64,000 nt of DNA from Ptychodera flava (lineage: Eukaryota > Hemichordata > Enteropneusta > Ptychoderidae): positions 26,226,080 to 26,290,079 of the forward strand of contig NC_091929.1 of assembly GCF_041260155.1 (NCBI RefSeq), in the 5' to 3' direction. Below are positions 23,901 to 52,300 of the stretch, piece by piece. Both the position numbers and the translations under genes were made by a program. Within the stretch, counting starts at the first letter, position 1. Every line of letters begins with the position of its first letter. The notes below the pieces were generated by a model. That model did not search any database. It was not told the origin of the DNA and saw only the letters and a list, made by a program, of their open reading frames with translations.

Positions 23901-26900
23901 ACCGTGTCACGTGCCTCAACAATTTCAGATAATTTCCTTGGTTCAGTCGGGCCCCGTGACCGACCATAATGTAATCAACAAACCACATCAAGTGACGAGT
24001 TTACCACGTAATCTTCACCAGTTAATGACATGTATGTACGTGCTATAGCACAGATATTGAATAAAATGGTCAAAACATACTTGTATAAGTATAAGTGATA
24101 GGGTTCATTGGTATTACACTATAACAGTATACTGAAATTCTGTCATGAAACATAATACACAGGGGATTTGGAAGTCAAGTCTGTTCTATGGCAATTGAAA
24201 TAATAGTGAAATGTTTCAGATGTCTTGACCGATCAGATGGCTGTATTTTCATCATCAATACATAGGTACAAACATAATACTCAAGATAATTGGACGCATG
24301 AACGCGTGTAATGATAAAACATATCTGCTACTAAATGCATAATACCAACTAATGAATCGACCGGGATTCATTTAAACTTCTACAACTTAAATCTGGCTTT
24401 AAGTAAATCAGTACTGGAGTTTTACATTTCACCACCAAATGAGCAGTAGACGACGAATACGCGCACGTCAGCGCTTTAATGTACACAGTGTACCTATACT
24501 GACAGCACTTTCAGGGTTTTAGGAAGAAAATGACATCATGTGATTTATTAGTGAGAGATCGACCTTGCCATTGGTAAATAAAGACAAAGAATAGGACGGC
24601 GAGTGTGAGAACAAGCATTTACGTGCAATATTTTGGGAAATATATATCTTGCATACAATATTTTCGCTAAAATGGCGACTTTGTCTTGGTTGTTGGTTAA
24701 CCGTCATTGCTCCTTATTTTCGCTTCAATAACAAGATGAAAAAATATTTACTTTGAGTATCAAAATAAAGTTATCAACATAACAGACGCATTCAATAGAT
24801 AAAGTTGACTTTTCAATTAAAGGGTTAGTAACTGTAACTTTCGATAATTTTTTCACATTTTTGTTTTGTATGCCTATTACAAGTTCTTGTTCTAATCTCC
24901 ATGGCATATTGAAATTCCTATAAGCTGGCTCGCCAACAAGGCGTCCTGGTCGCGTAAAATGAACTGTTATTGATTACATTTGATTCAAATTACAATGCAG
25001 TTCACACATTTATCAGCTGAGTTGAAAATCCAATCACTGCGTACCTTAACATGCTTTGGCGACTTAAAGAAGAAAGTATAATTGACATTAAAAATAATAC
25101 AATTGACAAATCATGAATTACAACAACTGACAGTTTCGATGCTCGTTACTTTCAGTCCCTGCAAATCATTATTGAATAATATCAGTGCTGCTATGGAAGA
25201 ATGGCTCTCACAAGCCGGTGCTGACTAAACAGTGCCATCAAGTGGATGAGGGTAGAATGAGCCCGAGGACAGATATTGGGACTATCAAATTCTTACAACG
25301 CTTCTCTCATCTACCTCTTGTGGCGCTCATTTTGAAGCTCGTGAAGTACAAAAGATTTCGAACGTCTTAGTTTTTCAAAAATCAAAACTATTTTTCCCAT
25401 ACTGTTCACACAGAAATGGCTGCCATTTCGAATTTCAAACATCGGTTAGATTATTTTATTAGCTCACGTGTGTAAACACGTGGGCTAATTTCATAGCGAC
25501 GTCTGTCTGTCTGTCAATGGGTGTGTATCTTAGTGTGTGTGTGTGTGTCTGTCTGTCTGTCTGTTTACACGATAACTCAAAACCGCCCGAACGGATTCAA
25601 GTCAGATTTCGTACACAGGTACCATATGCTACTTGCAAGAACTGATTAGATTTCGGTTAGTGTGGCTTGCATATTAATGAAGTTATGCAATATTGTTTTT
25701 TTTTTCCGTACAATGGTTTCCCTATGGAGACGGTAATCACAGTGTAGACATATATCAAGAAATACTTAACCAAATTTCATGAAACTTTTCACAGATGACA
25801 GTCTCAGAACATTATGATGATACTGTGAGTGTCATGTCAATTATCTTCTTATTAGCATATTTAATGATCTTTTGTTATTAATGAGATAACTCTGAAATTC
25901 CTGCACGAAACTTGATGATATTTGCAACAAATATTGATCTGATATATATCTAAGTATACTTAGAAGATTTGGCAGTGTCAAGTTAAAAAATAGCTCATTT
26001 GCATATTTTATGAAGTTTTGTAATTAGTCATATAACTCCGATATAACTTCACCAAATGTGATGAAATTTGCTGCAGATACTGATTTGACTGATATCATAT
26101 GGATGTTTTATTTGCATTTCAAGGCCTCCGGCCCCATTGCAAAGAGTTACATTACACAAGAGAAAAGTTACAATTTGGTATGAAATAAATATAGTATGAA
26201 ACAAAGTATTTACAATCGTTAGGAAAATTAATTACTAAGACATTGTTTTCGGAAATTAAATGCCTTATAAATAAATATACACAGCTTACGTATCGTTCCT
26301 TCATTTGATGATTGTAGCAAACGGTTAAATTTACAATAATTTGGATGGATATAAGTTTCACTTGAAATATAAAGTACACGAAAGTCTTTATAGGCAGGAC
26401 ATTCTAATAAGAAGTGAAATTCATCCTCGACTTTGTTAAGATTGCATAAGGTACAAAATATTTCGCTAGATATCATGTTTGTGTTTTGGAAACGTTTTGT
26501 ACAAAAGAAAATACTTGTCATTTTCTTTCCGATTATAAATTGTTTTTCTTCGCAGCCACAAGAAAGTCTCGAAGGGGTAGACCAAGTGGTGGTGTTATGG
26601 TATATGTTAAAATGGATCGGTAAAGTTAAGCAAATTCAGAGTGATCTTGAAAATTGTGTTTTTCTCGAATTTGACAAATCAGTATTTTCATGTGATAAAA
26701 ATGTAATTTTGGGCTGTTGCTATATTCACCCAGAAAATAGCACGAGTGAAATCGAAAAATTAGAGGATTACTTAGTAAATGTCCGTTCTTTCAACGCCGA
26801 AAGTTCTATCATTCTGTTTGGGGATTTTAACGCCAGAGTTGGTTCACTTGAGGATTGTATGATAGACGACTCAATTGATCATGTACCTCTATTGGGTGAT

Positions 26901-29900
26901 ATTGGTTATACATTCTGTAAACCACGTCAGTCCAGAGATTCGGCTGTAAACCCAGCTGGTAAGGTTTTGATTGATTTGTGTAAGAAAGTAGGTATGCATA
27001 TTGTAAATGGTCGAACAGGTGAAGATCAAGTTGGTCATTTCACATGTTTATCGTATGCTGGGGCAAGTGTTGTAGATTATGTCATCATTTCTTCTGAGTT
27101 ATTTGACAGCGTGGTGAATTTTCATGTACATCAACGTACTGAGTCAGACCATATGGCGTTAACATGTAAATTTAAATGTAATGTATTTAGAAATGTCAGT
27201 TGTGTGACTAGTGAAAACAACCACGAGTGTACAAATGTTGAGTGTTTTAAATGGTGCGAAAATTTCAGAAATACCTTCCTGGAAAATGTATCTTCAACTC
27301 AGGTAACAAGTCTCTTCAAAGATTCAATAGACAGCTTGCCGAATATTGACAGCGCTATTGATAAGTTTACCTGCGCTCTGAAAACTGCTGGGAAAGACAT
27401 GCAGTGTCAAACAACTAAGCGTTAACAAGTAGATTGGTTTGATAACATGTGTTTTCTCAAAAAACGCTAGTATGTGTAACAAACTGAAAGATTCCAGGAA
27501 GTCAAATACCAGCTTTGCCTTAAAAGAGTACTTTGCAGCAAGAAAAGGTTTCAAAAAAACGTGTAGAAGTAAAAAGTTAAATTTTCAAAATGTCATTGGA
27601 GAGAAACTTTCAAACGCTTTCAAGGAGGGTTCATCAAACATCTTAGGTATTTTGAAATCATGTATGAATCGTACAAGCTGCAGCTCAAACAATATTAGTC
27701 TAGATGATTGTACGATTATTTTAAAACATTGTATGAACAGTGTGCGGATACTGGTTCTAGTGATCACTGCTTCTCTAAATCAGTGAGTGAAGTCTTACAA
27801 AATTTTGACGTTTCTGTAACTGAAACTCAGGATGCTGAAACTCTAAATAGGCCTATTTCTGAACAGGAGATTTTATCAAGTCTCAAAAAGCTGAAATGTT
27901 CGAAATCCCAAGGCTTTGATGGAATCCCAAGTGAGTTTTTCAAATATTCATCTGCTGTTGTAACACCTTTCCTTCATATTTTGTTTAATTTTATTTTTGA
28001 ATCTGGGTATTTCCCCGAAGACTGGGCGACCGGTGTAATTGTACCCTTGCTTAAGAATGGTGATAAGAATAATGTTAACAACTATAGGGGGATTTCACTT
28101 TTAAATATTTTTGGAAAGATTTTTACTTCTACTCTTAATGAAAGGCTGACCATCTGGGCTGAAAACAATGATGTAAGATCCGAATGCCAAGCAGGATTTA
28201 GAAAAGGCCATAGTACTGTTGATAATATTTTTGTTTTACACGCTGTAATCCAAAAGTATCTCAGTGTTAAAGGAGGAAAATTTTATTGTCTCTTTGTGGA
28301 CTTCTCGAAGGCATTCGATAGAGTTGATCACTCCTTGCTTCTTTATAAGCTGTCTTGACTGATATCTAAGTGTAGTGTAAAGCATTTAGTAGTGTGAAAT
28401 TAATTAAGGGTTCATTTGCATATTTAATGAACTTTGTAATTAGTGATTTTACTCCAAAATTACAGCGTTAAATTTGATGAAACTTGCTACAGATGTTGAT
28501 CTGATAAATATCCAATTGTACGGAGAAGCATTGAGCAGTGTCAAGTTAATAATTATCTGATTTGCGTATTTCATGAAGTTTTATAATAATAGTCATATGA
28601 CTCCGAAATAACTGCATCAAACGTCATGAAAACTGCTGCATATACTGATCTGACAGATATCTAACTGTGTTGTAAAGCATTTAGTAGTGTAAAGTTAATT
28701 AAGGATTCATATTTAATAAACTTTGTAATTAGGTATATATCTCTGAAATTACGGCACCACATTTTGTGAAACGTGCTACAGAAATTGATTTGATAAATAT
28801 TTAATTGTGCTATGAATCATTGAACAGTGTCAAGCTAATTTAGGGTTTATTTGCATATTTAATGAACTTTGTGATTAGTGACATTACTCTAAAATTACAG
28901 CACAAAATTAAATAAAACGTGCTACAAATGTTGATCTGATGGATATCTAGTTGTCTCATGAAGCATTGAGCAGTGTCAAGTTAATTAACAGCTCATTTTC
29001 ATATTAAATAAAGTTTTGTTACTAGTGATTAAACTCTGAGAGTACTGTGCGAAGTTGAAAAAACCTGCTACATATATTGATAACATATATCTTATTGTTC
29101 TGTAAAGGGTACTGCTATTAATGAACCTGTTGTAAAACACGTGAGCATATTCAGTTCATATCTGGTTTTTCTAGTACCAACTTTGCATATTTGGGATTCA
29201 ATATCAAATACTAATTTACAGATTTTCGAGCGTCTAAAAAGACGTGCAATTCGTATTATTCTTGATACTGATTCCAGTGTGCCAACCAAGGATCTTTATC
29301 GTACATTACGATGGTTACCACTCGCTTTTAAAATTCAATTAAACAGGCTGGTCCTAGTTTTTAAAGCTACGAAAAAGCTCGCACTATGCAATATTAATGA
29401 ACTTTTTAACGAATACCGTCCTTCGAGAAACTTACGATCTGCAAATAAGCATCTTTTAGACATTCCAAGAGCCAGAACAGAGTTTTTCAGAAAGTCATTT
29501 CAAGTAACAGGTGCAATTGAATTTAATAATTTACCTTTTAATCTTAGGGAGCTGGAAGATGTTAATGATTTTAAAAAGGCTTGTCATAATTATTTATTAA
29601 CCAAGTACATCGAAACTTGTTAATGCTGTTTTCTCATGCACTGTATCATTTCTTGCGTGATTTGTACTGTCTCTCTTTTAATTTTTGATTGTATTTGTGT
29701 TTTATGTCTTTTTGTGTCTCGACCTCCATGAAAAGAGGTTTTCGTAACCTATGGAGTTATCGAGATTAATAAATAAAGTTTAAATCAAATAAAATAAAAG
29801 AGAATGGTTCGAAATTGATTTTAGTAAAATTTATGAAAAGGTTGAAGTCTCGCGTTCGAGGCGCATACAACCTTAAAGCCGCATATGGTACATTTATGTC

Positions 29901-32900
29901 ACCTAATGTACAAAGTAATGTTTGTTTGTTTATAACACTGTAATTCAATTCGTACCGATTTAACAATATACGACAAAATTTCCACTACCTAAGGAACCTC
30001 AAGTATCTTCGAGAAAAACATTAGAATCTTGATCAAATCCAAAATGTTTTCACTAGTCTTCTAATTATGGTTTGAAAAGATTAATTGCTTAATTCAAATA
30101 ACAACTGACATTATTTACTTTATAGCGTGCATAGATGATCATAAAATATTTTCACTTTACCTTCGCCTAACACTTCCACTTCACAGAGGGTGAGACTGTC
30201 AACTTTGTTTTCTAGTTGCACGGAGACAAAACGACCTTCCAGACAGCATTCAACTTCTATCATCTCATTGGTGCTGATCTCATCAGCTGTTATGGTTTCT
30301 CCGCACTGTTGGTTGTCAGCAATGACGTCACTGTTACCAACTCTGATCACCGCACCACTTAAACGTTGAGCTACGGAAACAGAGTAGTAGATAATAAGTC
30401 CCTGTTCACAAACAACTCTTCAATAATGCAGGTATTAAAAAAAATTATCGGCTTCAGTAGTTAAGGGGCAGGATAGCGAACCGCGCGAGATGTGAGTGGT
30501 GGCGCTTGTATAGCACAAACGGCCAACTGAATTTGAGACGGGCAAGTATAGACCAAAAGTTTTCTGAGATTTGGGAATATCATGTAGTTCCAGATTTGAG
30601 TGATGCCTTGCATATTGAGGTCCCCGAGGTCATGATCTTTCAAAAGACCCAGAGATCGTTAATTCTCCAACCCTGGGAAATGCTGGCATTAATGTAGTCC
30701 CTCGTTTGTTCGTCCACGGAATAGCAGTCGGACACACAAATCCCGCAGGATTTCTGGAGTTTAAGATTTCGTGCTGCATGACATGTTTCTGCTTAATTTA
30801 CATTGTGAGATTTGGAGCATGATAGAGGGTACATATCATTATGGACTGTTGATGTAGGTGAAAGGTCCAATTGGATAAAAAACGTTTAGCTGGTAGGAGG
30901 TGCACGGCTAAGAACGAGCTAGGTGGACCCCTAGTTATTGTAAATAAACCCTTTTCATTAAAAAATACAGATCAGATGTACACTTTAGTCACATTGGATA
31001 GTCTTCCTGATTAGAGTAAAATAATATTCTTTGCAAACGGCATGGAAGATAGGAGTCAAGGAATTATATGTTAAGTTTCCCTGTTAAATCTTTTATGATT
31101 TTATTTTATTTTCTTAGAGTGACCGAGAAATGTATTTTCTTTACCGGTTTTACTGGTAACAATACGTCATCAATATAAATTGTGTGACATTGTACATTGG
31201 CCCGACCTGGCCTTTATCAGACAAAGGGGGAGAGATTCACATTTTCATTTCATCTTTTGCAATAAAATATATATGGTATTATTGTACATTATCAGATGCG
31301 CAAGCCAAGTTTGTCGTCTCTGAACAGAAAATACCGGGATTTATACTCTGATCATTCTACGTCACGACAACCCGTGTCTATGTCATCAAATTTGGTGCAT
31401 CGGAACTTTTTTGCAAAGGTCTTCGATGTACTCGTCATGTAAACAAACAATATGGATGCCCGTATTTGTCCTGCGATCAAAATTCATCTGACGTGAAAAT
31501 TTGTAAAAATCAGTATGATTTTAAGGGTCTGACAAAATACATCCACTGAGCAAATTTTGAGTCCTTCTTTGTTAGTTTTGTACCAATATGGGGGATAACA
31601 TCAGTATAGACCCCGCCGCCGCATGAACTTTCGGAGCACAGTGAATTCTCATGCCTTAGACATGCCGTTTCAACAGCAAGGCCGGGCGCACGCCGAGACT
31701 TTAAACGTCATGTAATGAAATCATTATTTTTATAGATTGTGACAACAAAAATCCGAACTCACAAGAAAACAAGAGTGTAAGGAATTGAAGGAATTACGTG
31801 ATTAATTTTCGGAAACAACAAAGTCGAAGCTGGTCGCATTACAGTGGAATCCGTAAGCATTGCGTACTGTTGGGGGCTGTATCACCCCTATTTGTAACAA
31901 TCAACCCTATTTGTAAATTCGGATAGTTTTCAATCGGATTCGAACCCACAACTACGGCATCAGTCGCCTAGCTGGGAGGCCACAGACAGAACCAGTCGGC
32001 TAAATCTCCACTCCCAAAAAAGAGTGGTTCAATAGCCGGCTAAGTTGTTACATTTTTCTGACTGAGACCGCTCAACACGTTGTAGCACAGGGAACTGAGT
32101 AATCTTGTTGTTGTTGTTGTTGTTATTGTTGTTGTTGATGGTGATGATGATGACGATAATAAAAAATATTAAAAAACAACGTGTCATTCCTTGCTGTTGT
32201 TTGTCGATGTTGTAGATAATTGTAAAAGAAAACTGTAATCGTGACCAAAAAACGACGTAGGTCGCTCAACGTCACTCCCGTCCTTAAATACAACCAAGGG
32301 TGGAATCGAGATGCCCCTGATCAAGGCTCATCAGCCACCTTCAAGGCCCAGAAAAAACACCCCATTCACGAGCGATCGATTGAAATGTGCTATCATAGGC
32401 ACTGAAATTTATCTCACTGACCTAATTTGGGCTTCACTTGAACTACCGACCTGCAAACGAGTGGAAAAACGGCGATTTCCAAGTCGTACCCGGTCAAAAT
32501 CGATCACATTTGAACTTCCCGGTCGATGGTGACGGCGCTTTCGTCACTGGGCATTTAAATTGACCAATTGGGGGCCCTGTAAAGGCTGCTTCGGCCAGCT
32601 CTCATTACTAATACATGAGGAGGCTTGTCCCAACGCAAAATTTCACTACAGTTTAAACTTCGCCATCTCAACTTCATTCAATTTCCATTCTTGTAAAATA
32701 ATACTTATATGGATACCAATGACAAATCAACCCGTCTTTTCCTGTAAACTATCACCTGGAATACTCATTCACAACGACAATGTACACTCGCTCAAGTACG
32801 AGCCCGGATGTTGTTTACGCTTGTAACGGGGGAAATTTAAATACCCGGAAGTGTACGCTCTAACTATCGACAGTATATCCTGAGGTAAAATGGCAGATTT

Positions 32901-35900
32901 CCTGACAAAGAGTTGGTAAGTATCCGTTTATCTGCATGACTATGAAGGTTTTTCTACTTTTTCGCGTACTTTTGAACGTTACACGTACACGTACGAGCAG
33001 GGAGCATTGAAACATAAACAATCGGCTGCTAAACATTGTCGGCCTGAAGTGAAGACATACCGGAAAAGTTTCGTTTCGTTGAAACGTACATGTTCAATAT
33101 CATTTTATACGAAATTTTACCTCTGAGAAATGCAATATATTTTTCGGTCAGTATGACAGAAGAGCCGTTACCTTGTTCATGATTTAATTAAGAGTTCATT
33201 GTTATTGACTTGTACACTTGTATTTGTTCCAGGTTGCTATGCAATTATCATGTGTCACCTGGTGCCACAACGCGCCTTGTTGACATTCTCAGTCATTTGC
33301 GGCAATCCTTAGGAAATACCCACAACATCCAGTACAAGGACAAAACTGTGAGCTGTTTCATACGAGATCTGTGGGGTGAGCACATTACAGTAAACAGAAA
33401 AGTAATTTCAGGCACATTTCCCCTTTACCAACGAACCACACTCTACACTAATTTAAGTATAAAGGAGACTACTCAGCCATCTGAAAGTGATGGAATGTCA
33501 TGGGAAACCCTGAAATCCTTCTGTCCATCAGGCTGGAGTCCACCTCATTTGAACAGTGATGGCATTTTAGTATGGATAAAAATATCTACCACAACAAACA
33601 CAGTGAATGGTTGCCGTATTGTAACAGAAGTTCAGATCAAGAGAGAAGAAAGTGGTCTCACTGTTGCAGTCAAGTATGGGAGTCGCACTGTAAATCTTGA
33701 GGACATAGGCTTCAAAGTTTCAGAATTTTTCTGTCAGAATGGTTCAAGTATTCATCAGATAAATGCTTTAATGGATATGATATCAAATACATCATTTTGC
33801 TCTGGGTTTGAGTGGACCGGATCCACAGTTACCAGTCAAGGCCACAGTGAGAAATGGAAAATATCAGACAGAGAAATTACCAAAATGAGAAGCAACAGCT
33901 GTGAACTTTTCTGCCGCTTGTCAACATGCTGTTCAAAATGCCTACTGTTAAAGAGAAAAATGAATGCAAGGGTACGTGCAAGTGATGAAGATAATAACAG
34001 CAGACATAAGAAATTAAAAATGATGGACAAAGCTGAGGTTATAGAGCTGTTGAAAAAAGAACAAAAACTGCGAAGAAATGCAGAAGTAAAGAAAAGGGCT
34101 TAAGGAGAAAGCTGCAGGAAGAAATGTTGGAATTTGATAGCAATGATGGAGACTTCACAGAAATGTTTCAACTGATTGATGAGAAGCAACTGGGTGACGA
34201 TATGAAAATTTTGTTTCAACAACAGAAAGACATTTTAAGACAGAAAAACGCGAAGGAATATAGATGGCATCCACAGTAAGTTGTTGCATATACATGTACA
34301 TTGTCACAAACAGAAAAGACAATATGACATAATGTAAATTTGTAGTACCATACAATACATGTGGTGCACAATATACAATACTGTATACAATTTCCCTTGT
34401 CCACCTACAACACAAGATGTCAAAATGACTGGTTCAAATTACTGCTGAAGTGACCAAACTCTGTATTTTATTATTTCAGATTTATTTTGCCTCAATTATG
34501 TAATGCCCTTGTCTTTGTTTTCATGTAGTTGGTTGTGTGCATCCACAAACTTTAACCTGAAAATCACTTAATGTGAAGGGTTTCAGATAAAAAAAAAGTT
34601 GGGACACCCGCATGCATTTCAGTGTTAATGTTGATATAATGAAATATTATGTATTGGTAAATTCAAGTACATTACCAGAAACTCGGGCCTGAAAGGGTTT
34701 TAAAACCCTTTCTCAGATCACATGAGTACAACACATAAGTTGATAAGTGTAACATAAATATCCTGTTTAAAAATGATACATTTCATAAAAACTGCCGGTG
34801 CCCAACAATGTGGAGTTTGTGAAAAATGTTAGAAGCTGCATAATAGAGTCAAAAAAGCTCTGTGGAAATACATACAATTCAATTGTTTAAAATTTATTTT
34901 ATTATGTTTTCATGTCCTAATTGAATTAATCTCTTATCTTCTGAAAGGGACAAAGTCACTCATTTTTTGGCATTATTTCAGCTATTTTAAATACTTTTCA
35001 AATGTTCACTGAAATATGCTTAGTCTCTGGATGACACAGCTCAACTAACACCTGTATAAATAAATACGCATAAGATCCACCATTTTAATTTATGGTATGT
35101 ACCAAAATTTCCAATACAGTTACAGTTGTGTACAGGATAAAAGTCAAATAATTGTAACATACAATGTACATGTATGGTGATTGAGCATATTTCAGTGAGC
35201 ACATCAGCATAAATGATCAATGAAAAGAAACTAAAATAGCTGAAATATTGTCAATAATAAGTGACTTTGATCCTTTACCATTTCAGCATAATCCAGCTAT
35301 GCCTAAGTATTTATGCCAGATCCCCACAAGTGTACGATGAACTTGCAAAAGTTCTGATTTTGCCAAGCAAGAGAACTATCCGGTACAATAAAAACAAGAA
35401 CCCACAAGAACCAGGTGAGACATGCATGTATCTAAAACATTATCTCTGCTGAAGTTGAGAGCTCACCCATAAGGACACACAACTTATTGATTTGGGGCAT
35501 AACTTCATACCCTGATATAACTGCTTTGATATACTATTGAATATGACAGAATAATGTACTGCCTTTGAAAGCTAACTTGGACAATATATGCATTTTCAGA
35601 AAGTAGTTTCACTGTTGATATCCCAAATGAACTATCAGTACAGAAAACTTAAGGCCCAATCAGCACCATTGTAAGCATTATTTTTTCCATGATACATGTG
35701 CATGATTTTTGCATTTGGATCCATATGTCACCTCTTTGGCAATGCATACATGTACAACAATTGTTCTCTACACTTTCTATGAAGTAAGGGATATGGCACA
35801 TGTTTAGTCTTTGAATTCAAATTTAAGTGGAATTACAATCAGAGGTTTATAATGTGTGCCCATTAGTAAGCTTATAATGTAAGTTTGAAGGTAAAATCAT

Positions 35901-38900
35901 CAAAATAATGAAATGGTGGCTTATTGGGCTTTTAAGTGATTTCTGTACATTGTATAATCCATATTTTACCTGAAATTTTACACAGATTTAATAAACATGC
36001 CTGTGTGCCTTTGTTTCATAATGGCATTTGACACAAAAAATTTATACATGTAAGTGTTTGTTGCTGATACCATAACTCTCTGACGTCATTTCACTGAACA
36101 TATGCATTTCTACTGTCTAAGTTATAACATGTTAAGCTTGACACACAAACAATACAGAAAATCAAATTTTAAAAAGTACATTTACAAACTGGGAATTTGT
36201 TAATTCTTAACTGATGCATTAAAATACCTCTACAGCGTTACACACACTCAAACATGTATGTAGACCATAAAGAAAATATCCATCTACAAAGCATTTCTGT
36301 TTTGATATCAGGTTGGAACTATGAATCTGTCAAAGGTTTGCTGGATGCTGCCAACAAGAAAGGTCTGAAGGAAGTAGATCGTTGGGGAGGACTATGCTTT
36401 GATGAAATGGCAATTCAGGTATTCTTTTTTGATTTCAATCTTAAATTTCCATGTGCATTTAGCAGTACAATATACACTTGAAGGGGAAGGTTACCCAGCA
36501 ATTGTGTTCATGAATAAAAAATCTATGAAAAAATGGTGCGAAATCTGTCTTTGTTATCAACTTTCACTTACCGATCCCATTTGTAAACCGTATAGGTTAT
36601 GGGTAGTAGTGACGTAAGGGCCTAGGACTGGACTGACACTTGTATGGCTTCCTTGGCTGAAGACTACAGGGAAGCCCTACAAGTGTCAGTGCAGTCGTAG
36701 GCTCTTACCTCACTTCCACCTATAATTAAAGGTTTTCAAATGGGTGCCACCACACGATCAGTAAGCGAAAATTAAATAACAACAATAGATTTCACACCAT
36801 TTTTCGTAGATTTCTTATTGCTGAACACATAATTGCTGGGTAACCTTCCCCTTTAAAGACGCCCATTGGCTATAAAAAGAGGATTACAGATAATGTGAAT
36901 ATTACTGTCAATAGGACCTTGTACAAACTAAAATGGTTATGAGCCGTATGTTTACCAAACAACATAAATGATACTGTGTTGACTGGTTGATTCACTTTGA
37001 ATTCACACACTCTTTCAGGAGGATTTGCAGCTTTCAAAGTGTGGCGGGAAAATCTAAGCTGGTTGGCATTGTTTCATTGGGAAACTCATTCACAGATATG
37101 CAAAGATTGATGAAAGGTAAATGTCCTAATCAAAATTGTCCTGGACCAGTGTTTTTTTACATTTCTAACTTTTTTATACATTTGAAGCTAGCTCACTGAC
37201 AGCTTAGTAATGATAAAAATGTTACAGAGCTCAAAAAGTATTAATGGCTGAGTACAATAAGCTTGAATTCTGTATCATACAGTACATGTATATGTAGCCG
37301 AGCACATTAGATTAATTGCCAGTGTAAGCCCACATAATTACGCACTTCACAGAAAAGAGCTAATCAGTTGGATTATACCACTGTATGTCATACTACAGGA
37401 AAACCTGTTTAAAACTGGACACCTAAGGGACTGAGAAAACTGTTTGGTTTATAGAGGTTCCTTAAACATGGCAATCTATGTGAAAGAGACTTGGAAAAGT
37501 GTTCAGTCTACACACGTTTCAGTTTAGACAGGTTTCACTGAAATAAGAAAAGGCCTAAAATGGCATGCCTTAGTTATCAAAATGACCATGCGGTGGAATG
37601 TTTTTAAGGCACCTACCTAACCTAAAATCTGTGATTGCCGACATCTCTACTTTTCCTCAATAACCAGGCTCGTAAATCTGCATATTTGACAGTAAACCTA
37701 TCATGAAAACCTTAGCCAGTTTGCTTCTCTAACAATGCAAGCTTCATCATCAGTATAATTTTCACTCAGAGAAATGCAACTTAATTATCCCCTTTCTATG
37801 GCACACGTACATACTTCAGTGTAAAAAGTACACGTACATTGTACTAGTATATAGAACATACACTACTGTTATAGCCATAGCTAAAGAAACATGAAATAAA
37901 CACATGACTAACTAAAGTGGTCTACTTTCCCCTTTTACAGGAGACTGGAAAGCAGAAACCGCGACACACGTTCTGCAGTTTGTATTCATAGGAGATGGTG
38001 GGTTGCGATATCCCATAGCCCACTTCCCAACAAGGGAGTGCCCACCAGCTACTTTATATAGATATTTTGGGAAGGGGTTCAGCTACTTCTAAAGGCTGGA
38101 TTTCAGTAAGTATCACTAAGTAAGTTGATTTAAGGATGTACCAGCGCTACGCATGCATGGAATTTGTCTCTTCCAGGCGCTACTCATAAAAATAAAGGTA
38201 TTACGGCAAAATAAGACACCCCCCCCCCCCAATATTTGGATTCTAATTAAAGGGACGAAGTTGCTCATTTTTAACATAATCGTGGATTTGTTACTTCTGA
38301 AATATCATTTATGTTCATTTGCTAACTGAAATCTGCTTAATAGCCAGGTTTTATTATTCAAGACTTGTCCTGCACAGGGTCATGATATGCAATTTCTACT
38401 AAAATACAATATTTATCACATACATGTATAAACAGTTCAATGATTGAAGTAATCATGCGTTTTGTCCTATTACAGGATGATGTGAGTAGATAGTGTCAAC
38501 CAGAGACTGAGTCCATTTCAGTGAAATAACCGACATAAATAATATTTCAGAGAAACTAACATATCCAAAATAATATAAAAAATGAGTGACTTTGTCTCTT
38601 TAAGGATGAACATGTACACCCTGAGTAAAATGCTACTCAGTAAAGCTATTGAACTAATTTAGTCTGTGTAAATGAACAGCTGTATATGTTTTTAAATGTC
38701 TTTCAGAATTCCTGAATGAAGATAAGACATTGATATGTTGGCTGCTTCTAAGTTCACTTGGATTTCCACATTGACTTTGTATCAAAAAACTATGTGCCTA
38801 GTTCAAAAAATACAAATACATTTCTACAGAGGGAACCAGGGTCCAAATGCCAAATGAAGCACACTGTACATGTATTTGTTCAGTAGTCAGATTGTTTAAA

Positions 38901-41900
38901 TGAAACCTCTTTCTCCTCAGTGTGTACTGGTCCTGCTGTGATGGTGGAGAAAGTAACCGTGGATTTATAAACCTCCATTTCAAGGATAAATCTGCCAGAG
39001 AGAGCAATTTCACCACACGTAATCCAATGACTGGAGGTAAAATGGTCTTCATAATGGATCCAAAGGTATGTCCCCACTAATTACTTCCAAAATGTGTTTC
39101 TCCATGAAAGATAAAAAACTAAAAAGTAACATTTCCCTAAAAAACTTATAAAAATCTACTGAAGTCTGCCTAAAAATCTTATGAAAATCAATAATTTTGA
39201 TAATAATGAAAACAGCTACCCAACTTCAGCTGCTTCTTTGTCACAGAAAATTTACCATGGAGCAATTTCAACTGATTTGAATTTTTTAAAGAGGAAGTCA
39301 ACATTATTAGATGAATGTTCATAGAGTTCTTTTGTCTATCCAGTTGCATGTAACACGGAATCTCCTTATTCTTGACTTGACAGTGTATTACATATTTGTG
39401 TGATCTTCATTTCTCTAGCACAACATCAAGAAAATACGCAACAACCTGGAGAAGAGCACAGAGACAGGAAAAAAAACAACTTCAGTTGAATGGAAACAAA
39501 GTTCTGTGGAAGTACTGGTTAGATGCATATACTACAGATCAAACTTCCAACCCTCTAGTTATACATGAGAGGCTAACAGAGGATCATTTCCATTTGACTC
39601 CTCAGTTAAAGATGAGGAACCACCTTGCTGAGGATGTACTGGACAGGAAAATGCTTTTTACTGTACAGGTACATTTAAATTTGTCTTAATATTGCTTGCA
39701 GAGGAACTATCTGTCAAAGCAATGGCCAAGCGAACTGAAGAATTTCACATGTGAAAATTAACAAAGGCTGATGATACATGTACTATTGACAGCTTCATGA
39801 AAATTTGCACAAAGCTCAGTCAAAAGAAATACATTATAGTGATCAAATAAAACTATATAGTCACCGTGCTTACTTTTGAGATAAACGACATTGAATGATT
39901 TTGTCTATTGCATTGGTGAAACATGTTAACCATTATTGTTAAAATTCATGGTCTTATATCTCAGAAACAAGCACAGTGACCCCCCCCCTCACACATATTT
40001 TATTGCACATTTTTATAATGCTTACAAAGAAGTAAATTTAAATTAAATTTTACTGATCGTACATCCTTAATGATGCAAGTTTCAATCCCTTGTTCTCACA
40101 TTATTTCTTGTTGACACTATGTTTACAGGCTGTCAGACCTTTGTTTTCCATTGAAATTGTTATCAGTGTGATAAGTGTGTTTTCAGATAAAGCTGATAAA
40201 GAAGTTGCCCCTTTAAGAATTTGCTTGGGGGTGCTGGCGTATTCGTATCAACACTCAGTTCACTATCCCTGTCTTTTTTCTTACAGGCTTTCAAGAGACA
40301 CTTGTTTGCAAAATATGGCAAGGAAGTTTCTTACCTTGATGGAGCAATAAGGATCCTGACACACACCAGCAAATATGTAGCATTCTGCAACAATGTGAGG
40401 AACCCCATTCGTGACATGTCTGATGGCAGATTGGTTGACTGTCGAGAATTCCTGTCATTTCTAGATGCATGGAATGCTGCTGCACAACCACATCAGTTCA
40501 TCTCAAAGAAGTTGTACTTCGATATGCAATCGGCACTTGTTGGACTGGAACAGCTGTGTCAATATAAACTCGGCCTTTTCCCGGGTTCAGCAATCATGCC
40601 TGGCATCATAAACCAAGATGTGGTAGAAAACATCTTTTGTCAGGCACGTTCCTATAATGGACAAAACAATAACCCGACATACGATAAGTATCGCAAGTCA
40701 CAAAACAGCATCATTCTTCACCAAAGGTGCATTAGCAGAAAGGGTAATGCCAGTGTGACTTTCTCACGGCAACTGTCCCTACTTGACTGAACTGAATGAC
40801 TCTTCAGGGTAAACCTTACCATTCTATGTTGTCTATGTTGTCCCATAGACCCTGAAGCAAGAGGGATGGAGACTGTGGCATACATCAAAAGAAACCCATT
40901 GAATAACACAATTATCTTTTATAATTTTGTAACAATTGTCATTTTTCATGTGAGATACAAATTAATGTACATGTACATACAACTTACCAGTATTTCAATA
41001 AATTTCTAATTAATATCAATCCAGGGTATGTACTACTTTGTTAATGTCTCTGGTATCTTTTGAAAAACTTATAGTGAGAATGAAATCTATATTTTTAAGG
41101 AAATATTGCAGGCAAGTAAACTAAGGAACCCAACCTCAGATTTGCATTTGTTGTTTCAAAACAGTCTTCAACAACAGACAAAATATATACAATTTTTTTT
41201 TTCATGCTGAATGAGTTTGATTAACCCCTTGATTAGTCAGGGGTTAACTTTTTTAGTTCTAGCATATGGTGGAAGCTTACCAGTGTCCCTTACCGGTATT
41301 ATACCCCGGTAGTTTTGTTTGCATTTGCTTTCTTGAATGACATACCAATCACATCACTATCCCCATTAACCTCAGTATTCTCCCTAGGAACCGTTTGATA
41401 GCATTGCGGCTGGATTTTTATTGTTGAGACAATAAAATCCTGCTGTAATTGCTCTTGGAGAACACCGATTCTATTTGTAGCATAATATAGTAAAGAAAAA
41501 ATATTTACCCTGCTACTGCCTCTGGAACCGCATCATTAACCCACCAGTATCGACTGTCAATACCTGATATGTCTTGAAAACCCATGGATTTGGAAAGCAG
41601 CTGGATTTAATGATGACATCCTTCAAGACTTTTGCCAGTTCTTTCTTTGTTGACCGTTTGGGGAGAGCAAGACTGTATGCTTCTGCCAGCAAGAAAAGTT
41701 CCTCTTTTTTGTATTGAGTTGATTGGAATATGTCAGGGTGGTGACTGAGCATAGCACAAAGACGGTGGTGAGAGTTGATCAGTCCCCTAGAATCATCACA
41801 TCTGATCTGAACATCTGTTACCTTTGCAGCAGCTTGTTGTCGTTTTTGTGTCTTTGTTGCAATTTTCTTACGATGGGCTTGCGTTTTCTTCAACTGCACC

Positions 41901-44900
41901 TCTCTCCTGTAGTCTTTAAGGAACTGTCCTGCACCCATGTTGATGTACCTTGACACAATTTGTGAGTACATTTTCATTGCAATGTCATGGCTTATGTTGA
42001 TATGTTCACCCAGGAATAGGTTTTGGAATGTGATGAAGATGTCACTATTGTTGAGAAGACTGTCTTTTGCATTTGAACCAGTGATACATGCTGTTGATGA
42101 AGGTGAGCTATTGTTAGTAGCTTTATCCTTTCCTGTTCCAACTTTAGGAAAAACAAGTATGTTTCATCTGTGACATGGATAAGCCCATGTCTGGAATATT
42201 GGCGACTGTCTGTCACCCGCAGTGTTTCTGGATACTTTGAAACCCTGTGTATCAGTGTCTCTGGAACTGTCAGAAAGTCCAGAGATTGCTTTGTCTGGTA
42301 TTCCAATTTCAACCGTTCATGGACTTTCTTATCAGTTGAGTACAGATTGTTTTTTATGTATTTTCTACTGCTTTCAATTTCTTTACGAAGTGTCCAACCA
42401 GCCAGGTAGCGTATTTTTCCTCTGCCATCACTCCCGATTTCTTCTACATCTACAATATTTGGCGTCTCTTCAAGACTTCTGTTTTCTGCAAGGGAAATAA
42501 GACAGTGCACCTGCAGATCATTAATCTTCCATACGATGTTAGTTAGTAGGGTGAAGTGTTCGTCTTTCATACTGGTGACAGGGATACCAAAAAGGGATGC
42601 ACCTTCTTCCATTAAGCTGTGTTCGTTGCAGATTTCATGCAGTGCACCAGCCATGTTCTTGAAATCTGCTGGTTTAAGCTTTACTTCTTCATTTTCTTCA
42701 ATTCCTTTCTTTGTAGCACAAAAGATCTTCAGCCATTGTATCTTTATAAATAAAATAAACAGCTCTGGCATACTTTCTAATTTGTCAATCAGACAGTTCA
42801 AACGCCTGGGTAGTGAATCTTTCATTTCAGCAAATGGAGAAACATCTTTAAGTTCATGTAGGAATGTGTCTGCATTGAAGTCATGTGGGAGTTCTTCTAG
42901 CTCTCTGTGGCTTTTCTCCATACTGGCATAAATGTCCCTCAAATCTATGGTAGTCTCATCACTATTATCCCCATCATATATTGACTGTACATATGCCTCT
43001 TCATCATTATTTCTCCTCATTTGGATATCCTCACTGCATACTATGTCACACTCTACATCTTTGCTGCAACAGGCAATATCTTCTGGCACTTTTCGACTCT
43101 GAATGCATAGTGTTTCATAGAAAGAAGATACCTGGCTGTTGACTGGAAGCATCCTCTGTGGGGTAAAACCAATTAACTGAACTGTATCTTTTGATTTTGC
43201 CCTTGAAAGTGACACGTACAACTGCCCTGGAACGAATTCGTTGCCTGCGTGTACAACGACATTCTTGATTGTTTGTCCCTGACATTTATGTGATGTCATT
43301 GCCCAGCAGAGCTTCAGAGGGATTTGACAGCGCCTTCCTATCTCAACTCCTGGTCGTTTTTAAAAATCCAGACTTGACGTTGCACAGACACCTGTATCAT
43401 GCTGTCCTCAAAGGCTACAACAGGATTTCCATTTTCATCCACTCCTTTGAAAAAGCCAGTACTCCCATTGTGTAGGCTGTTACTGAGATTGTATACCAAC
43501 ATCACAGGAGCCCCAACCTTTAGTAAGAGCTTCTTTGGTGCAATGGCACGCCTTTCCACTTCATGCATGTCCCCTTTATCAACTGCCTGGAAAACATGGC
43601 ATTGTCCTGTTAACTTATCAAGTTGACATATGTTGTGGAAGTCCACATCTGCATTATGGAAGTAGATGTGGGTTTGGTTTTCTGGGTTTGGCAGAGACCG
43701 CTTCAAAGTGTTGAGGAAATCCAATGTGCGAGGACTGCATTGACCGAGGCGGACACTATTCAAAGCTTGGAGGAACTCTTGCTGATTGTGTTGCTGTCTA
43801 TAGATAGTTTTGAGGACCATGTTGTGTCTGAAGGTTTTCTCCCACAATGGGGACTGGAATGGGTATTCTCCATCATCTACATGGCTTGGTACTGGTGGTA
43901 ATTGATGGAAGTCTCCAATTGCAATTACTTGGATACCACCAAATGATTGCTTTCCTTCTCTGCATACTTTACTTAGCGTAGCGATGACATTGAACAGACG
44001 AGCACTGACCATGGAAACTTCATCAATTATGAGTACATCAACTTCTCTCAACTGTGTAGCAACATACTCCTTTGCATTTTTGATAATGTCTTGAATGGCT
44101 TGGTCAGCCAATCCGATTCCAAAAAAACTGTGAATTGTTTTAGACTTTTCTGGCAGGTCATCATATATGCTGCAGGCTGCACCAGTAGGACACACAATCT
44201 GTACATTTTTGGAAGTAGTTCTGGTAAAGTTCTCGTATATTTTCTTTACAAGGTAACTTTTACCACTTCCAGCTGGGCCAGTGATGAAGATATTGTGACC
44301 AAGCAGTGCTAACTCCACACACTTTTGTTGTTCCTCTGACAGGCTACAAGGCAAAGTTTTGAAGATCATTAGTTTTCTCAATAAGAAAAGATAAATCTTA
44401 TCTGTACAAAACTTCCAGAAATCTCTCAAGTGAACTCTCCATATTATTTTCGGATATTTTAAATTGTTAAAATTACTTCAAGAATTTAAGTAATACAATT
44501 CAGATTTATGGAGATATCCGGAAGCTATGTTCAGGAAATGATATGTTAGATATTTAAAATCTTGAACTCAATTTGAAGCTGATATCTAACAAAAAATATT
44601 ACAACAAATGACAGACATCTTATTTTCCTGGAAAGAGAAAGCAACAATTTAACAACTGTTTCTGCAAATTTGATAAAATAGCTAAAAACATAAATCTATC
44701 AATGGTTATACACTGCTTTTGAACACGCACAGTTAAATCCACTACACACTTTCAGTCTCCAGGGTAATATGACATCAATAACATTGAACAGTTTCATTAA
44801 ATGCTGAAAATGCTTAAATGCTTAAAACTTCTTCAATATGGCATGCATCATGCACAACCTCATGAGACTGATCAATGAAAGTTGATTTGTTGCATAATAT

Positions 44901-46271
44901 AATGAAAATGATCAAATCTGTAGTCAAAACCAAGGGAAACACAAATCAAAAAGTACATCACTCTCAATTTATATTATTGATCTGTCTCTAAGGAAAAGTC
45001 TTTAAAAACTTTCATGCAAATGTACTACTGAAAATGTAGACTGATAAAACCTTAAAGTAAACACTTAGTTGTTTAAGTGTTTAAAGGCCCATGAACTGTA
45101 AATTTCAAATGATTTTATTCATGTAGGTGAAATCACGCATCACTAATTTGTAAATGAAAAAAGACAAGTGGGTATCCAACTCAAATATGGCTGCATTTAT
45201 ACTTGTATGCAAAAAGGAGACGTGTAGTGTGACACCATACTAATATGCAAAAACACCCACACATTTGACATGGAAGTAACATTTGTTACAATCTTGATGG
45301 AAATACTATGGTGTCAACCAATGAATGGGACACATGTAATTTAATGGATGTTTTCTCTGTTACTTTGCAACATGACTTGCATACTTTTTGAAAGTGGCAG
45401 GAAATTCACAATGCAATAAACATGACTTTACTTTTGGGTGTTTCTGTCACAAATACATATTTTCTCACGTTTAAAGCCAACGACATTATTGTGAGTTGGA
45501 AATCAAAGATTAATTGGGAATTTAAGAGAATATATTTTTAAGTCAAAATATTTCACAGTTACAGCTGATGGACCTTTATTAACACATTGGGTAATTAATT
45601 ATTTGAAAATACAAATTAATGAAATTCAGGATTTTATAAAAAAAATGAAAAAGTAATTAATTGAACTATTTTAACAAAAAAGTATAACTCTGACTTGATG
45701 TATTTTATTTATACATGTGTGGTAACATATGTAAACTGGGCAGACTGAAGAAGCTATCTGCCCTTATTATCATACAGTCCTAAAATGTCAGCATAACATA
45801 CCTCATACCTGGTTTCTCAATAATATAAATGCTACCTTGATAAACAATACCCAACAATACAAATAAAATCAGTTACAAATTTAAAAAATACAAATGTATT
45901 GACACATAACACCCTACAGTACAAATCAATTTCAGTTAAAAAAATAAAATGATATAAATGACAACATCCTCTTCTTTAAAGCATAACACCCCATACACTT
46001 GTACTTGCAAACACATACAGAATTCCTTTCTAGTAGAGAAACCACATACATGTACAGTGCAAGGTATAGTTGTACTGAAAAATCTAATATCACAGTACTC
46101 TGACTGGTGGTTCAAGTAATATTGATCTTACTGGTGGTTGTTTACATTTGGAGGATGTTGCCATCTTCATGGCACGTCTGTCAGAGCAACATGTTTATTC
46201 TATTTTATATACACTCCATGAGATCTCTGAGTATATATATGTGTGTTGTGTGTGTGTGTGTGTGTGTGTGT

Positions 46272-46305
<34 letters not shown>

Positions 46306-49300
46306 ACAGACAGACAGAGAGACAGACAGACAGAGACAAACAGGAGAGAGACAGACAGACAAACAGACAGAGAAACAGACATAGAAACAGGCAGATAGAC
46401 AGAGATGCAGACACAGAGATCATATGGAGAGATATGCACATTTCAAAATACAAGCATGCAAAGCATATTTGTTTTGTACCTCTGTGACATGACTTTTCAT
46501 ATACAAAACATTGCATCATTGCAGGAGAAACTGTAAACACAAATACTAATTGTTTTACTTACCAGCGCCTGCTGTTGACAACTCACTGATTTGTAAGCTT
46601 ATCAATAGTATCCACGTTTCTGCTCACAAGATCGAGAATGAAAAATAATGTCAGAGGTTGGTAAATCGCCATCACTTATATTATGTCACGTGCCGATCAA
46701 TCAAGCATCGTTGAATATTTATATTAGATGCTAATGACTTATTATCAATGGTGAATATTCATACCCCTCAGATATTGCCCAAGCTGGAGAGGCAGCTGAG
46801 CTGGAGGCGGCGGTACCGAATCCCCCCCCCCCCCCCCCCGATCTCCCCACTATGCTCGCATACAATGATACATGCAATATTCTGCGTATATATTCGTGCA
46901 GACATTACATTGTAAAGGCCAACGATCCGGACTGAGTCTGTGATCTCCTTCACAAATGCACGGTCACTCGAGTAACCGTACCAAACGTCAGGCATCTTCA
47001 CTGCTTTGCTGTGAGGACACAAACACATCGATAGGGCAGCCGCAGGAACAACTTTAGTACCATGGTTTGCAGGGGAAGGACGCGACTGAATTCACAAACG
47101 CACTCACTCCAAATGCTTACCTTGCGTATAAATTATCCTGTCGTTTTACAATAGAGTGATACAGATCGATGGACTGTCTGGAGAAACGTGAGGAAACCGC
47201 TGAACAGCACGTTGTATTTTCCCGCGAGTACACCAGGCGTAAACAACATCCGGGCTCGTACTTGAGCGAGTGTACATTGTCGTTGTGAATGAGTATTCCA
47301 GGTGATAGTTTACAGGAAAAGACGGGTTGATTTGTCATTGGTATCCATATAAGTATTATTTTACAAGAATGGAAATTGAATGAAGTTGAGATGGCGAAGT
47401 TTAAACTGTAGTGAAATTTTGCGTTGGGACAAGCCTCCTCATGTATTAGTAATGAGAGCTGGCCGAAGCAGCCTTTACAGGGCCCCCAATTGGTCAATTT
47501 AAATGCCCAGTGACGAAAGCGCCGTCACCATCGACCGGGAAGTTTAAATGTGATCGATTTTGACCGGGTACGACTTGGAAATCGCCGTTTTTCCACTCGT
47601 TTGCAGGTCGGTAGTTCAAGTGAAGCCCAAATTAGGTCAGTGAGATAAATTTCAGTGCCTATGATAGCACATTTCAATCGATCGCTCGTGAATGGGGTGT
47701 TTTTTCTGGGCCTTGAAGGTGGCTGATGAGCCTTGATCAGGGGCATCTCGATTCCACCCTTGGTTGTATTTAAGGACGGGAGTGACGTTGAGCGACCTAC
47801 GTCGTTTTTTGGTCACGATTACAGTTTTCTTTTACAATTATCTACAACATCGACAAACAACAGCAAGGAATGACACGTTGTTTTTTAATATTTTTTATTA
47901 TCGTCATCATCATCACCATCAACAACAACAATAACAACAATAACAACAACAACAACAAGATTACTCAGTTCCCTGTGGTTGTAGAGTTCGTGAAGCACTC
48001 ACGCACGCATGCTCACTATCATACATCGCACATACACACTTTATCGAAGCGAAGAAACGAATTTCATCGCTTTAACTGGGCGAACGATAACCTCGGGGAC
48101 AATTCTGTCCACCAGCAGTGTTACCTACCCAGGGTAGAAAATTCGGATAGTTTTCAATCGGATTCGAACCCACAACATACGGCATCAGTCGCCTAGCTGG
48201 GAGGCCACAGACAGAACCAGTCGGCTAAATCTCCACTCCCAAAAAAGAGTGGTTCAATAGCCGGCTAAGTTGTTACATTTTTCTGACTGAGACCGCTCAA
48301 CACGTTGTAGAGTTCGTGAAGCACTCACGCACGCATGCTCACTATCATACATCGCACATACACACTTTATCGAAGCGAAGAAACGAATTTCATCGCTTTA
48401 ACTGGGCGAACGATAACCTCGGGGACAATTCTGTCCACCAGCAGTGTTACCTACCCAGGGTAGAAAATTCGGATAGTTTTCAATCGGATTCGAACCCACA
48501 ACATACGGCATCAGTCGCCTAGCTGGGAGGCCACAGACAGAACCAGTCGGCTAAATCTCCACTCCCAAAAAAGAGTGGTTCAATAGCCGGCTAAGTTGTT
48601 ACATTTTTCTGACTGAGACCGCTCAACACGTTGTAGAGTTCGTGAAGCACTCACGCACGCATGCTCACTATCATACATCGCACATACACACTTTATCGAA
48701 GCGAAGAAACGAATTTCATCGCTTTAACTGGGCGAACGATAACCTCGGGGACAATTCTGTCCACCAGCAGTGTTACCTACCCAGGGTAGAAAATTCGGAT
48801 AGTTTTCAATCGGATTCGAACCCACAACATACGGCATCAGTCGCCTAGCTGGGAGGCCACAGACAGAACCAGTCGGCTAAATCTCCACTCCCAAAAAAGA
48901 GTGGTTCAATAGCCGGCTAAGTTGTTACATTTTTCTGACTGAGACCGCTCAACACGTTGTAGAGTTCGTGAAGCACTCACGCACGCATGCTCACTATCAT
49001 ACATCGCACATACACACTTTATCGAAGCGAAGAAACGAATTTCATCGCTTTAACTGGGCGAACGATAACCTCGGGGACAATTCTGTCCACAGCAGTGTTA
49101 CCTACCCAGGGTAGAAAATTCGGATAGTTTTCAATCGGATTCGAACCCACAACATACGGCATCAGTCGCCTAGCATCAACCCAACTTGTAAAAAACCTTC
49201 ACCCTATTTGTAACACTAACCCAATTTGTAACAAACCTTCACCCCATTTGTAACACTAACCCATTTGTAACAAAACTTAACTCTATTTGTAACACTAACC

Positions 49301-52300
49301 CAACTTGTAAAAAAACAATCGGTTTTGTTGAAATTTGATGAAATTTGCATATTTTCATTTTAGGGGCAATTTTCCTGATTTTTCCTTGTGGAAACTCATT
49401 TCTTTCGGAAGCTGCTCGTGAGATTGTTCAGAATTTCGGTGTGCAGGTTCCCAGGAATAATACTCGTACGTTGTGCAGATATATGACAAATCTAATTTGA
49501 GGGCAATTTTCACAAATCAGACGATTTAGACAAGATTATTATTGTTATTTTCTGTACCTTTGGTGAATGATCTTGCATTCATTTATTCATACATTTTAAG
49601 TGGTCAAAGTCGATCTCAGCTGTTTTGGTAAGTTTTGTTTTATATTAAAAGTTGCTGTTGTTTGAATATTTAAAGCATGCTGAAATCAATACTGGTGAAG
49701 AGTACACAACACCCACTCTGTTTGCGGATAGACAAGATAAACCATAAACGAAACATTTTCTGGTACAGAAGAGAAAATGAAAGTCTGTTCTCCATTGTCT
49801 ATATATCACCATGCATGAATTTTAACATTTTTGCATACTATTTTGACATTTTGTGGTTTTTTAATGTAATCTTGATTAGGTTACATTAATGAAAATAAAT
49901 GTTAACTTCTTTAATATAAATTGATGTGGCAATGTTTGTTTGTCATAGGAAAGATTTGTAGTGATTCACCTTATGTAGAGGGCAAACATAAAGTCGTCTT
50001 TTTATACAGTAATAGAGTTATTTCTGACATTTTTCATAACTTTTAAGGTTCTGCATCGACATTATTTTATACACTTTAAAGGTATACAGTCACCTGTAAG
50101 CTGAATATGCCCATATATGGTCAAAGGGGCGTTCCTTGGTATTCATGCCAATGTGAAGGCACTGTTTTTGACAAGCGGCCACCCGCTTAAAATCTGTGAT
50201 TGGTTAGATTTCTCTTTCCATGGTAAACGTGGCAAAATAGGTACAGGTGACAGTATACCTTTAAGAAGTCATGTGTGCGTAATAAGGAAACACACTGCTC
50301 ACTCGCCCGGCAACTAGAACTGATTGACAACTCGCCCATGGCGTATTGATTTTTCTCTAAAAGCAGTTTAGAAGTTAAAACGCGGAATCGTTGTGAGAAA
50401 CTCCTTTTGTTTTGTAAAAAAAATAAAATAAATTCTTTGCTTGTGCATCTGATAAGCATAGTATTCCCTAATATTTTTCTCCGTTCGACTTGGAAAATAC
50501 TTGTGACGTAATGACTGTGTCACCATTCGTCTTCAACTCGTGGTTACATGGTCATTACGTCACGAGTATTTTCCTTCGCCGAACAACGAAAAATATATAG
50601 CAATAATATCGAAGTATTTAGTAAAGCAGCAGGCAGTATTAGGGACATGAATGTATGAATCCTGCTTTTAAAAAATGCGCACTGCAGTAAACGAGGCCAT
50701 GTACCATTACACTGCGTCATACTACTGCCTTGTTGAACCTGGCTGGACATACAGTGTCGTCCGTCTTAAAGTGGCACTCCCATTTGGTAACATTTTTAAA
50801 ACACATTTTTTTAGTGCCAACGGTCGATATTTGACGTGGCGACTGCGCGCGGATCGCGAGATATCGATAAAAACATGTCTTCAAAAAAGTAAAAGTTTGA
50901 ATTCCGGTGGCCCACCTAAATTCAGCTTCCGAACATCGAACGTTCGGCACTTGGGCCATTTTCAACTAAGCTATGGAGTACGAGTCTACACTGACGCTGC
51001 TGTACGCCACAGTACCACTTGCCTCGGTGATCGGTCATGCCCCATTGGAGAAAGCTGAGTCTTACTGACTTGGTGATAAAACGAAAAACAATTTTTGCTG
51101 ATTCCACCAGAATTCGCATAGATGACTTGCCCAGTTACGTGCGGTTGATACACAGTGGCCACCGCGTGGTATGCATAGACGCATACCACGCGCGCGGCGA
51201 ACCACACCTACTGTGTGGCAGACGACAAAATGTAGTCATCGGAGGCGGCTAATATTTAACACGTAAAAACGTATGTTTATATGGTATTGGTTAAAAATAT
51301 AATACAACTGATTTAGAATAATGACAACAACAAAGCTATGAAGAAGTTTTCAAAAACTGACCTGTGTTAAAGGCATAATGCTGTATATAAAGTCTTCGCA
51401 GTGGGAGGTAAAATTGCGTCGTTCGAACTTATTATGGAGTCCCTAGAACATCGTCAATCATCACAACAACAAACCTTCGGTTGGTTTCGCGTCATAATCA
51501 GAAACGATCGTAAAACTTCAGGATGTGAAAAATACGCTCGGGAAATGAAATGTTTTTATCGATATCTCGCGATCCGCGCGCAGTCGCCACGTCAAATATC
51601 GACTGTTGGCATTAAAAAACTGTGTTTTAAAAATGTTACCAAATGGGAGTGCCTCTTTAACGTTGGTCATTATTTCTTTGCTTCGAGTTTGAATGGAAAG
51701 TTTGAAAATACTGATGAATTCCGTGTTTTTCAAATATATTTGAATAAAATCATCGAACCTTAACAAGAAGTGATATTCTCATAAATGATGGAAGTTGTTT
51801 TGCAAGCGTCGGAAGCTGAGTGAGTTATACCATCCGTATCCTTCACTTAAGCGAGTATTGTTGGCCTGCCACACACACTGTTTTTGTTGCCCAGCAACAT
51901 CAGAGTGAGAAATGTGATGGTTTCATCAGTAAGGTGCTAATTAGTATCCTGTCTCAGCCTTCTCATATTATCAGTAAATTACTTTCATCGCGGATGACTG
52001 ATAGTCCAATTAGTGGCATGGAATAGTGTTTGGTTAAATGATCACCGAAGGGAAATTTGTCGATCTATACACATTCGTACGTGTGCTAGCTAACAAAACT
52101 TATTTGTGACAAGGCAACACTGCCTGCAGTAGGCTGCGTTCACAAATAGTGGTAGGGGCAGGCTAGAGAAATCGCGATTGAAATTTTATTTTTATTCATA
52201 TCCCGCCATCAATACCCTCAATAAAATTTCAAATCCCCCATCTATATGATGAAAACTTTTCCAGCCTACCCCTAATTATTTAGCCGCATATTGAAGGGAT

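Follow-up and report, generated by a model that had tools for sequence, protein, structure and literature searches.

A 64,000-nt stretch of the genome of the hemichordate Ptychodera flava (contig NC_091929.1, positions 26,226,080 to 26,290,079; hereafter the window) contains a single insertion of 15,892 bp (window positions 32086-47977), in which one pair of long terminal inverted repeats encloses a P-superfamily transposase gene and, on the opposite strand, a Pif1-type helicase gene. The insertion is probably a recent, autonomous-type P-superfamily element whose lineage took up a helicase of the cellular kind as its second gene. P elements are textbook cut-and-paste transposons, which rely for their spread on the host to repair the gap left at the donor site.

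The insertion and its two genes

The left terminal inverted repeat (32086-32820, plus strand, ~735 bp) and the right one (47237-47977, minus strand, ~741 bp) were delimited by arm alignment. The left arm starts with CACAGGGAACTGAG, and this terminal sequence is present both at 32086 on the plus strand and at 47977 on the minus strand. Aligned end to end, the arms of 735 and 741 nt show one substitution and one 6-bp difference within a GTT run. Alternative limits of 738 and 744 nt, which include three extra positions, give 98.9% identity, and a 719-nt block of the arms is 100% complementary in a rounded figure. The arms are bordered by two copies of GTTGTAG (32079-32085 and 47978-47984), a target duplication whose length of 7 bp is fixed by the empty site. 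The target is an array of a 326-bp satellite (47978-49174, plus strand), identified by tandem-repeat and empty-site comparison: when the flanks are joined across one GTTGTAG copy, the resulting 333 nt match the uninterrupted array exactly at 48178 and 48504. Given this exact empty site and the shared GTTGTAG, the whole 15,892 bp came as one unit; the insertion is recent, since the arms and flanks scarcely differ. An earlier note on this DNA had described near-identical inverted repeats, a clean target duplication and the physical linkage of both genes within one mobile unit, and the single pair of ends, the duplication and the empty site bear out all of these. On its right, the satellite is adjoined by a 40-bp TTTGTAAC-type tandem repeat (49178-49314), and words like this repeat were also seen by eye to the left of the element, at ~31880-31915.

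With up to three mismatches allowed, the end pattern has four matches in the window against 3.2 expected. Two are the element ends and one lies inside the element; the match outside it, at 52651, is taken as chance. Scanning the left repeat for promoters of bacterial type was judged to be without bearing.

The transposase gene (32890-40790, plus strand) comprises nine exons whose limits were set by eye from reading frames and splice signals. Exons 1-5 lie at 32890-32915, 33233-34275, 35287-35414, 36312-36418 and 37019-37116, and exons 6-9 at 37941-38105, 38921-39065, 39419-39668 and 40287-40790. All eight introns are of the GT-AG type, and the ATG is located ~70 bp to the inside of the left repeat. 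The pieced protein is 827 positions long, breaks and junctions being marked by X. Its P-type RNase H core is recognised across the exon-9 frame and the pieced protein: the exon-9 frame matches TNP-like_RNaseH_C (PF21789) at 8.7e-06 (26.1 bits, cut-off 24), and the pieced protein matches TNP-like_RNaseH_N (PF21787) at 1.8e-05 (25.5 bits, just over the cut-off of 24.6) and TNP-like_RNaseH_C with 23.6, just under the cut-off of 24. Among solved chains, the Drosophila P transposase (6p5a) is the sole match up to an expectation value (E) of 1, with 0.0064 for the whole protein and no stretch significant alone. In this weak whole-protein match, FDEM falls in the D230 region of 6p5a and NQDVVE (of the form NQDxxE) in its E531 region, the places of the first and last catalytic residues. 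The catalytic Asp residues of Drosophila P are D230 and D303, and the candidate for the second is found in CCDGG at pieced position 533, placed by context only.

The coding part of the helicase gene (41513-44369, minus strand) opens at 44369 with the earliest ATG in frame, and no intron was recognised in it. The core (approximately 43108-44342, minus strand) carries GPAGSGKS, IIDEVS, GDFHQLPPV, SHKCQGQT and YVSLSRA, presumably the conserved helicase motifs. The PIF1 family (PF05970) matches the helicase frame at 9.4e-30, and for the pieced core of 431 residues the E of the PIF1 chains is as low as 5.9e-63. Bit scores reach 216 with the best PIF1 chains and 200 with the PIF1 chain 5fhh, 99-162 with the other core-aligning chains, named Pif1, AAA ATPase or TPR domain protein, and 60 with Helraiser, a Helitron protein. 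The core is complete along its length, as a single alignment with 5fhh covers query positions 9-421. The top-scoring chains, which we take to be fungal and human PIF1, place the helicase among those of the cellular kind, as judged from sequence scores rather than from a tree. Both the nine-exon P transposase and the Pif1 helicase proposed in the earlier note are confirmed as real. Beyond the core, the helicase has a C-terminal extension of ~530 residues (41513-43107, minus strand), which the PIF1 chains leave uncovered and for which nothing credible was found in Pfam, NCBIfam, PDB or phages. Weak matches of this region to plant INTS7, DUF1451, leptin and an AP-complex subunit are taken as chance, and a single-sequence structure model of 366 C-terminal residues (mean predicted local distance difference test score 33.8) was not used.

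The genes converge, transposase on the plus strand and helicase on the minus strand, with poly(A) signals ~0.4 kb apart. Their 3' ends share the interval 40997-41422, in which AATAAA occurs at 40997 on the plus strand (another at 41431) and at 41417 on the minus strand. One or more 5' exons of the helicase have been placed tentatively at 46771-47226 (minus strand), a GC-rich stretch adjoining the right repeat. There, one minus-strand frame scores 29.7 against a Markov null in which 95% of 50 runs score at most 12.0; scores of 18-19 are reached by other frames of the stretch on either strand, and a score of 22 by a plus-strand simple repeat. Since these other frames score high too, such an exon can be called only possible. 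Three inserts resembling miniature inverted-repeat transposable elements (MITEs) lie in transposase introns: one in intron 2 (34944-35276) with AAAGGGAC-type ends, a foldback in intron 4 (36478-36856) with TTGA and TTAA at its borders, and one in intron 6 (38247-38603) with TTAA at both borders and one end resembling that of the intron-2 insert. Related AAAGGGAC-type ends are thus found in two of the three.

Within the window, blastn (1e-3) revealed no further P element, and outside the element tblastn gave no match better than an E of 0.46. Beyond the window, the searches covered viral and prokaryotic collections, where absence says little: the exact 22-base end pattern occurs 0 times in the viral and 0 times in the prokaryotic collection. 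From the viral collection, peptide patterns drew 6 stretches with the helicase, 8 with exon 9 and 32 with the second frame of the helicase, none of them confirmed, and a two-row alignment of exon 9 with a Drosophila P fragment drew 104 and 153 stretches from the viral and genome contig collections, again with none confirmed.

State of the copy and competing explanations

The transposase contains four frame breaks, in exons 2, 5, 6 and 8 (near 34091, 37048, 38077 and 39471), and the helicase contains two (near 43355 and 42084). This amounts to six in ~5.3 kb, with two in 2857 bases of helicase versus four in 2471 of transposase. Five of the six lie beside a homopolymer of at least 4, and ~23% of either coding sequence is within 5 nt of one. 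The binomial chance of this association is 0.017 for an assumed fraction of 0.33 and 0.041 for 0.40, with break positions accurate only to some bases and the homopolymer count correspondingly rough. The gene pieces contain no in-frame stop, although they were picked as open stretches. On this rough evidence, consensus errors or slippage explain the breaks better than a general decay does. The sequence may hold homopolymer errors, or the copy may be inactive; the few differences between the arms and between the satellite copies weigh against pure sequence error.

Several observations weigh against a P-superfamily element with an acquired helicase. As assembled, neither protein would be made whole, and the copy may be inactive. 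The matches to the P superfamily are modest in score, and the Pfam scan of the pieced transposase found no THAP, HTH or GTP-binding family. An N-terminal THAP domain above the cut-off is absent from the frames as well as from the pieced protein, and P-like elements without THAP exist. A weak THAP match (0.027) in the open frame at 39393-39446 was rejected: it is below the cut-off, meets exon 8 only at its beginning and is not N-terminal. FDEM is separated from the presumed second Asp by 102 positions, versus 73 in Drosophila P. As to the GTP-binding insertion domain of the P superfamily, ~240 positions lie between this Asp and the Glu, but Pfam gives no such match up to E 1. Between the helicase ATG and the right repeat, ~2.9 kb are mostly unexplained. 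In addition, only one copy stands behind a stable pairing of the genes, and any role of the helicase in repair is one that we infer.

It is quite doubtful that the helicase is a passenger, that is, a gene of the host or of another element caught in this copy or in a few copies and without a role in transposition. Its nearest solved relatives are chains named PIF1, a single copy is known here, and the 2.9-kb Drosophila P element encodes just the transposase and a shorter repressor form, all of which would suit a chance capture. However, the helicase gene is no more broken than that of the transposase and, one frame break aside, has a complete core, which argues for an acquired second gene, as does the arrangement of the genes as a convergent pair. 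The long extra C-terminal region, with no credible Pfam family and beyond the coverage of the PIF1 chains, likewise speaks against a passenger.

It is unlikely that the helicase belongs to another transposon, such as a Helitron, or to a retrocopy nested in the P element. Nesting does occur in this element, as seen from the three MITE-like inserts in introns, and the 2.86-kb coding part of the helicase has no recognised intron. A run of ten T on the plus strand (~41190-41199, located by eye), ~0.2 kb past the helicase poly(A) signal, is the one sign to which a retrocopy interpretation might appeal. Own ends around the helicase, which according to the earlier note would speak for nesting, were looked for without success. 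Six inverted-repeat pairs (14-20 nt) occur in 40791-47230, but none has arms flanking the helicase coding part. No Rep-type (HUH) domain was found, either in a six-frame scan of 44478-47231 with stops translated as X or in the helicase frames, to which the scan of 40791-44477 was confined. The two sides of the coding part have only five overlapping 11-mers in common, located at two places, and as these are all AT-rich, no direct repeat of the target-duplication type is evident. Moreover, the Helraiser score is far under those of the PIF1 chains. It is highly improbable that the region inside the arms is a chimera of two unrelated loci joined by assembly error. The six frame breaks, five of them beside homopolymers, hint at an imperfect consensus, but homopolymer errors do not produce chimeras; furthermore, the arms match over ~735 bp and the flanks join exactly to the satellite.

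If the lineage did take up the helicase as a second gene, the transposase would cut and paste the element and the helicase would act after excision. P excision leaves the donor site with a double-strand break, for which either homologous recombination or end joining can serve as the repair route (PMC7776569). With an element of 16 kb, recombination off the sister copy would imply a very long tract of repair synthesis. Pif1 drives long displacement-loop synthesis during repair. An element with its own Pif1 could thereby favour full recopying at the donor site rather than internally deleted derivatives, and cut-and-paste transposition would yield a net gain. If the helicase does have a function in the element, such a role in long-tract gap repair is the favoured, though tentative, possibility, next to the alternatives of unwinding the long repeats or disassembling the strand-transfer complex.

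A stable two-gene P lineage would go further, with transposase and Pif1 forming one machine: the long C-terminal region of the helicase would attach to the transpososome or to the element ends, and long-tract synthesis driven by Pif1 would restore the full element after each excision. This proposal is doubtful: the linkage is directly visible, but the stability is unproven, since just one copy was examined. In a bolder and more speculative form, the C-terminal region of the helicase would be a fragment displaced from a P transposase. Its pattern GKIRYLAGW...RHGLIHVTDETY may resemble the tail of THAP9-like transposases; Pfam gives no P family there.

Surroundings in the window

Scans for tRNA genes and Rfam families in the window gave nothing. 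Ten frames in and around the element were scanned with Pfam, and three of them match, all on the minus strand and outside the element. A SUEL lectin domain is located at 23394-23729 (minus strand, 6.2e-18), an F5/8 type C-like domain at 54838-55200 (minus strand, 4.6e-12) and a weak hormone-receptor domain, below the cut-off, at 17427-17708 (minus strand, 0.0016). These host-like exons perhaps belong to a gene for a receptor resembling adhesion G-protein-coupled receptors, and the domains point to an animal host, perhaps a marine invertebrate. To the left of the element, a broken retrotransposon of the type without long terminal repeats (26418-29623, plus strand) was recognised by eye from its endonuclease- and reverse-transcriptase-like frames. 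A 146-bp tandem array (28362-29029) separates its reverse-transcriptase-like frame from another frame. Three tandem repeats, at 28362-29029, 52718-53935 and 61300-62488, have a unit of ~146 bp (or 138-147) and look alike in consensus.

Comparison with known systems

The element resembles P and THAP9-like elements in its RNase H-like core with FDEM and NQDxxE regions, in the introns of its transposase gene, in its terminal inverted repeats and in its short target duplication. It differs from them in the extra helicase gene and in that no THAP domain was detected. There are also differences in dimensions. The element is 15.9 kb long, compared with 2.9 kb for Drosophila P, and its inverted repeats of ~740 bp (735/741) are far above the 31 bp quoted for Drosophila P and the 13 bp for a zebrafish element, while the target duplication is 7 bp instead of the 8 bp of Drosophila P and the P superfamily (PMC7776569).

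Like the element, Helitrons with their RepHel protein (Helraiser) bear a Pif1-related helicase. The comparison with Helitrons made in the earlier note holds to this extent, but descent of the helicase from Helitrons does not follow, given 200-216 bits with PIF1 chains versus 60 with Helraiser. Helitrons are not known to have inverted repeats or a target duplication. Here, by contrast, inverted repeats and a target duplication are present, the transposase is of the RNase H type, the helicase is nearer to PIF1 chains, and no HUH Rep joined to the helicase was found in the stretches scanned.

Parallels in architecture are offered by other cut-and-paste transposons with helicases. KolobokH shares the combination of cut-and-paste transposition with a helicase, which in Kolobok-1_CCri is encoded on the complementary strand, but the transposase is that of Kolobok, the helicase is a RecQ and the hosts are fungi and a red alga (PMC9587614). 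AcademH is likewise a cut-and-paste lineage with a helicase, but uses an Academ transposase and generates duplications of 9-10 bp (PMC10045372). In Academ, the duplication length differs between the helicase and nuclease lineages, according to the IS481EU paper (PMC10045372).

No P element with a helicase was found in the open-licence literature, and one may be described elsewhere, e.g., in Repbase Reports. The pairing is unusual, but AcademH and KolobokH provide precedents for helicases on cut-and-paste elements in general. Elements of this kind may have given rise to some PIF1-like genes in the annotations of invertebrate genomes. If the favoured reading is true, the service of a helicase in long-tract gap repair becomes testable, and the P superfamily would provide a further case of helicase recruitment by a cut-and-paste element, beside Academ and Kolobok.

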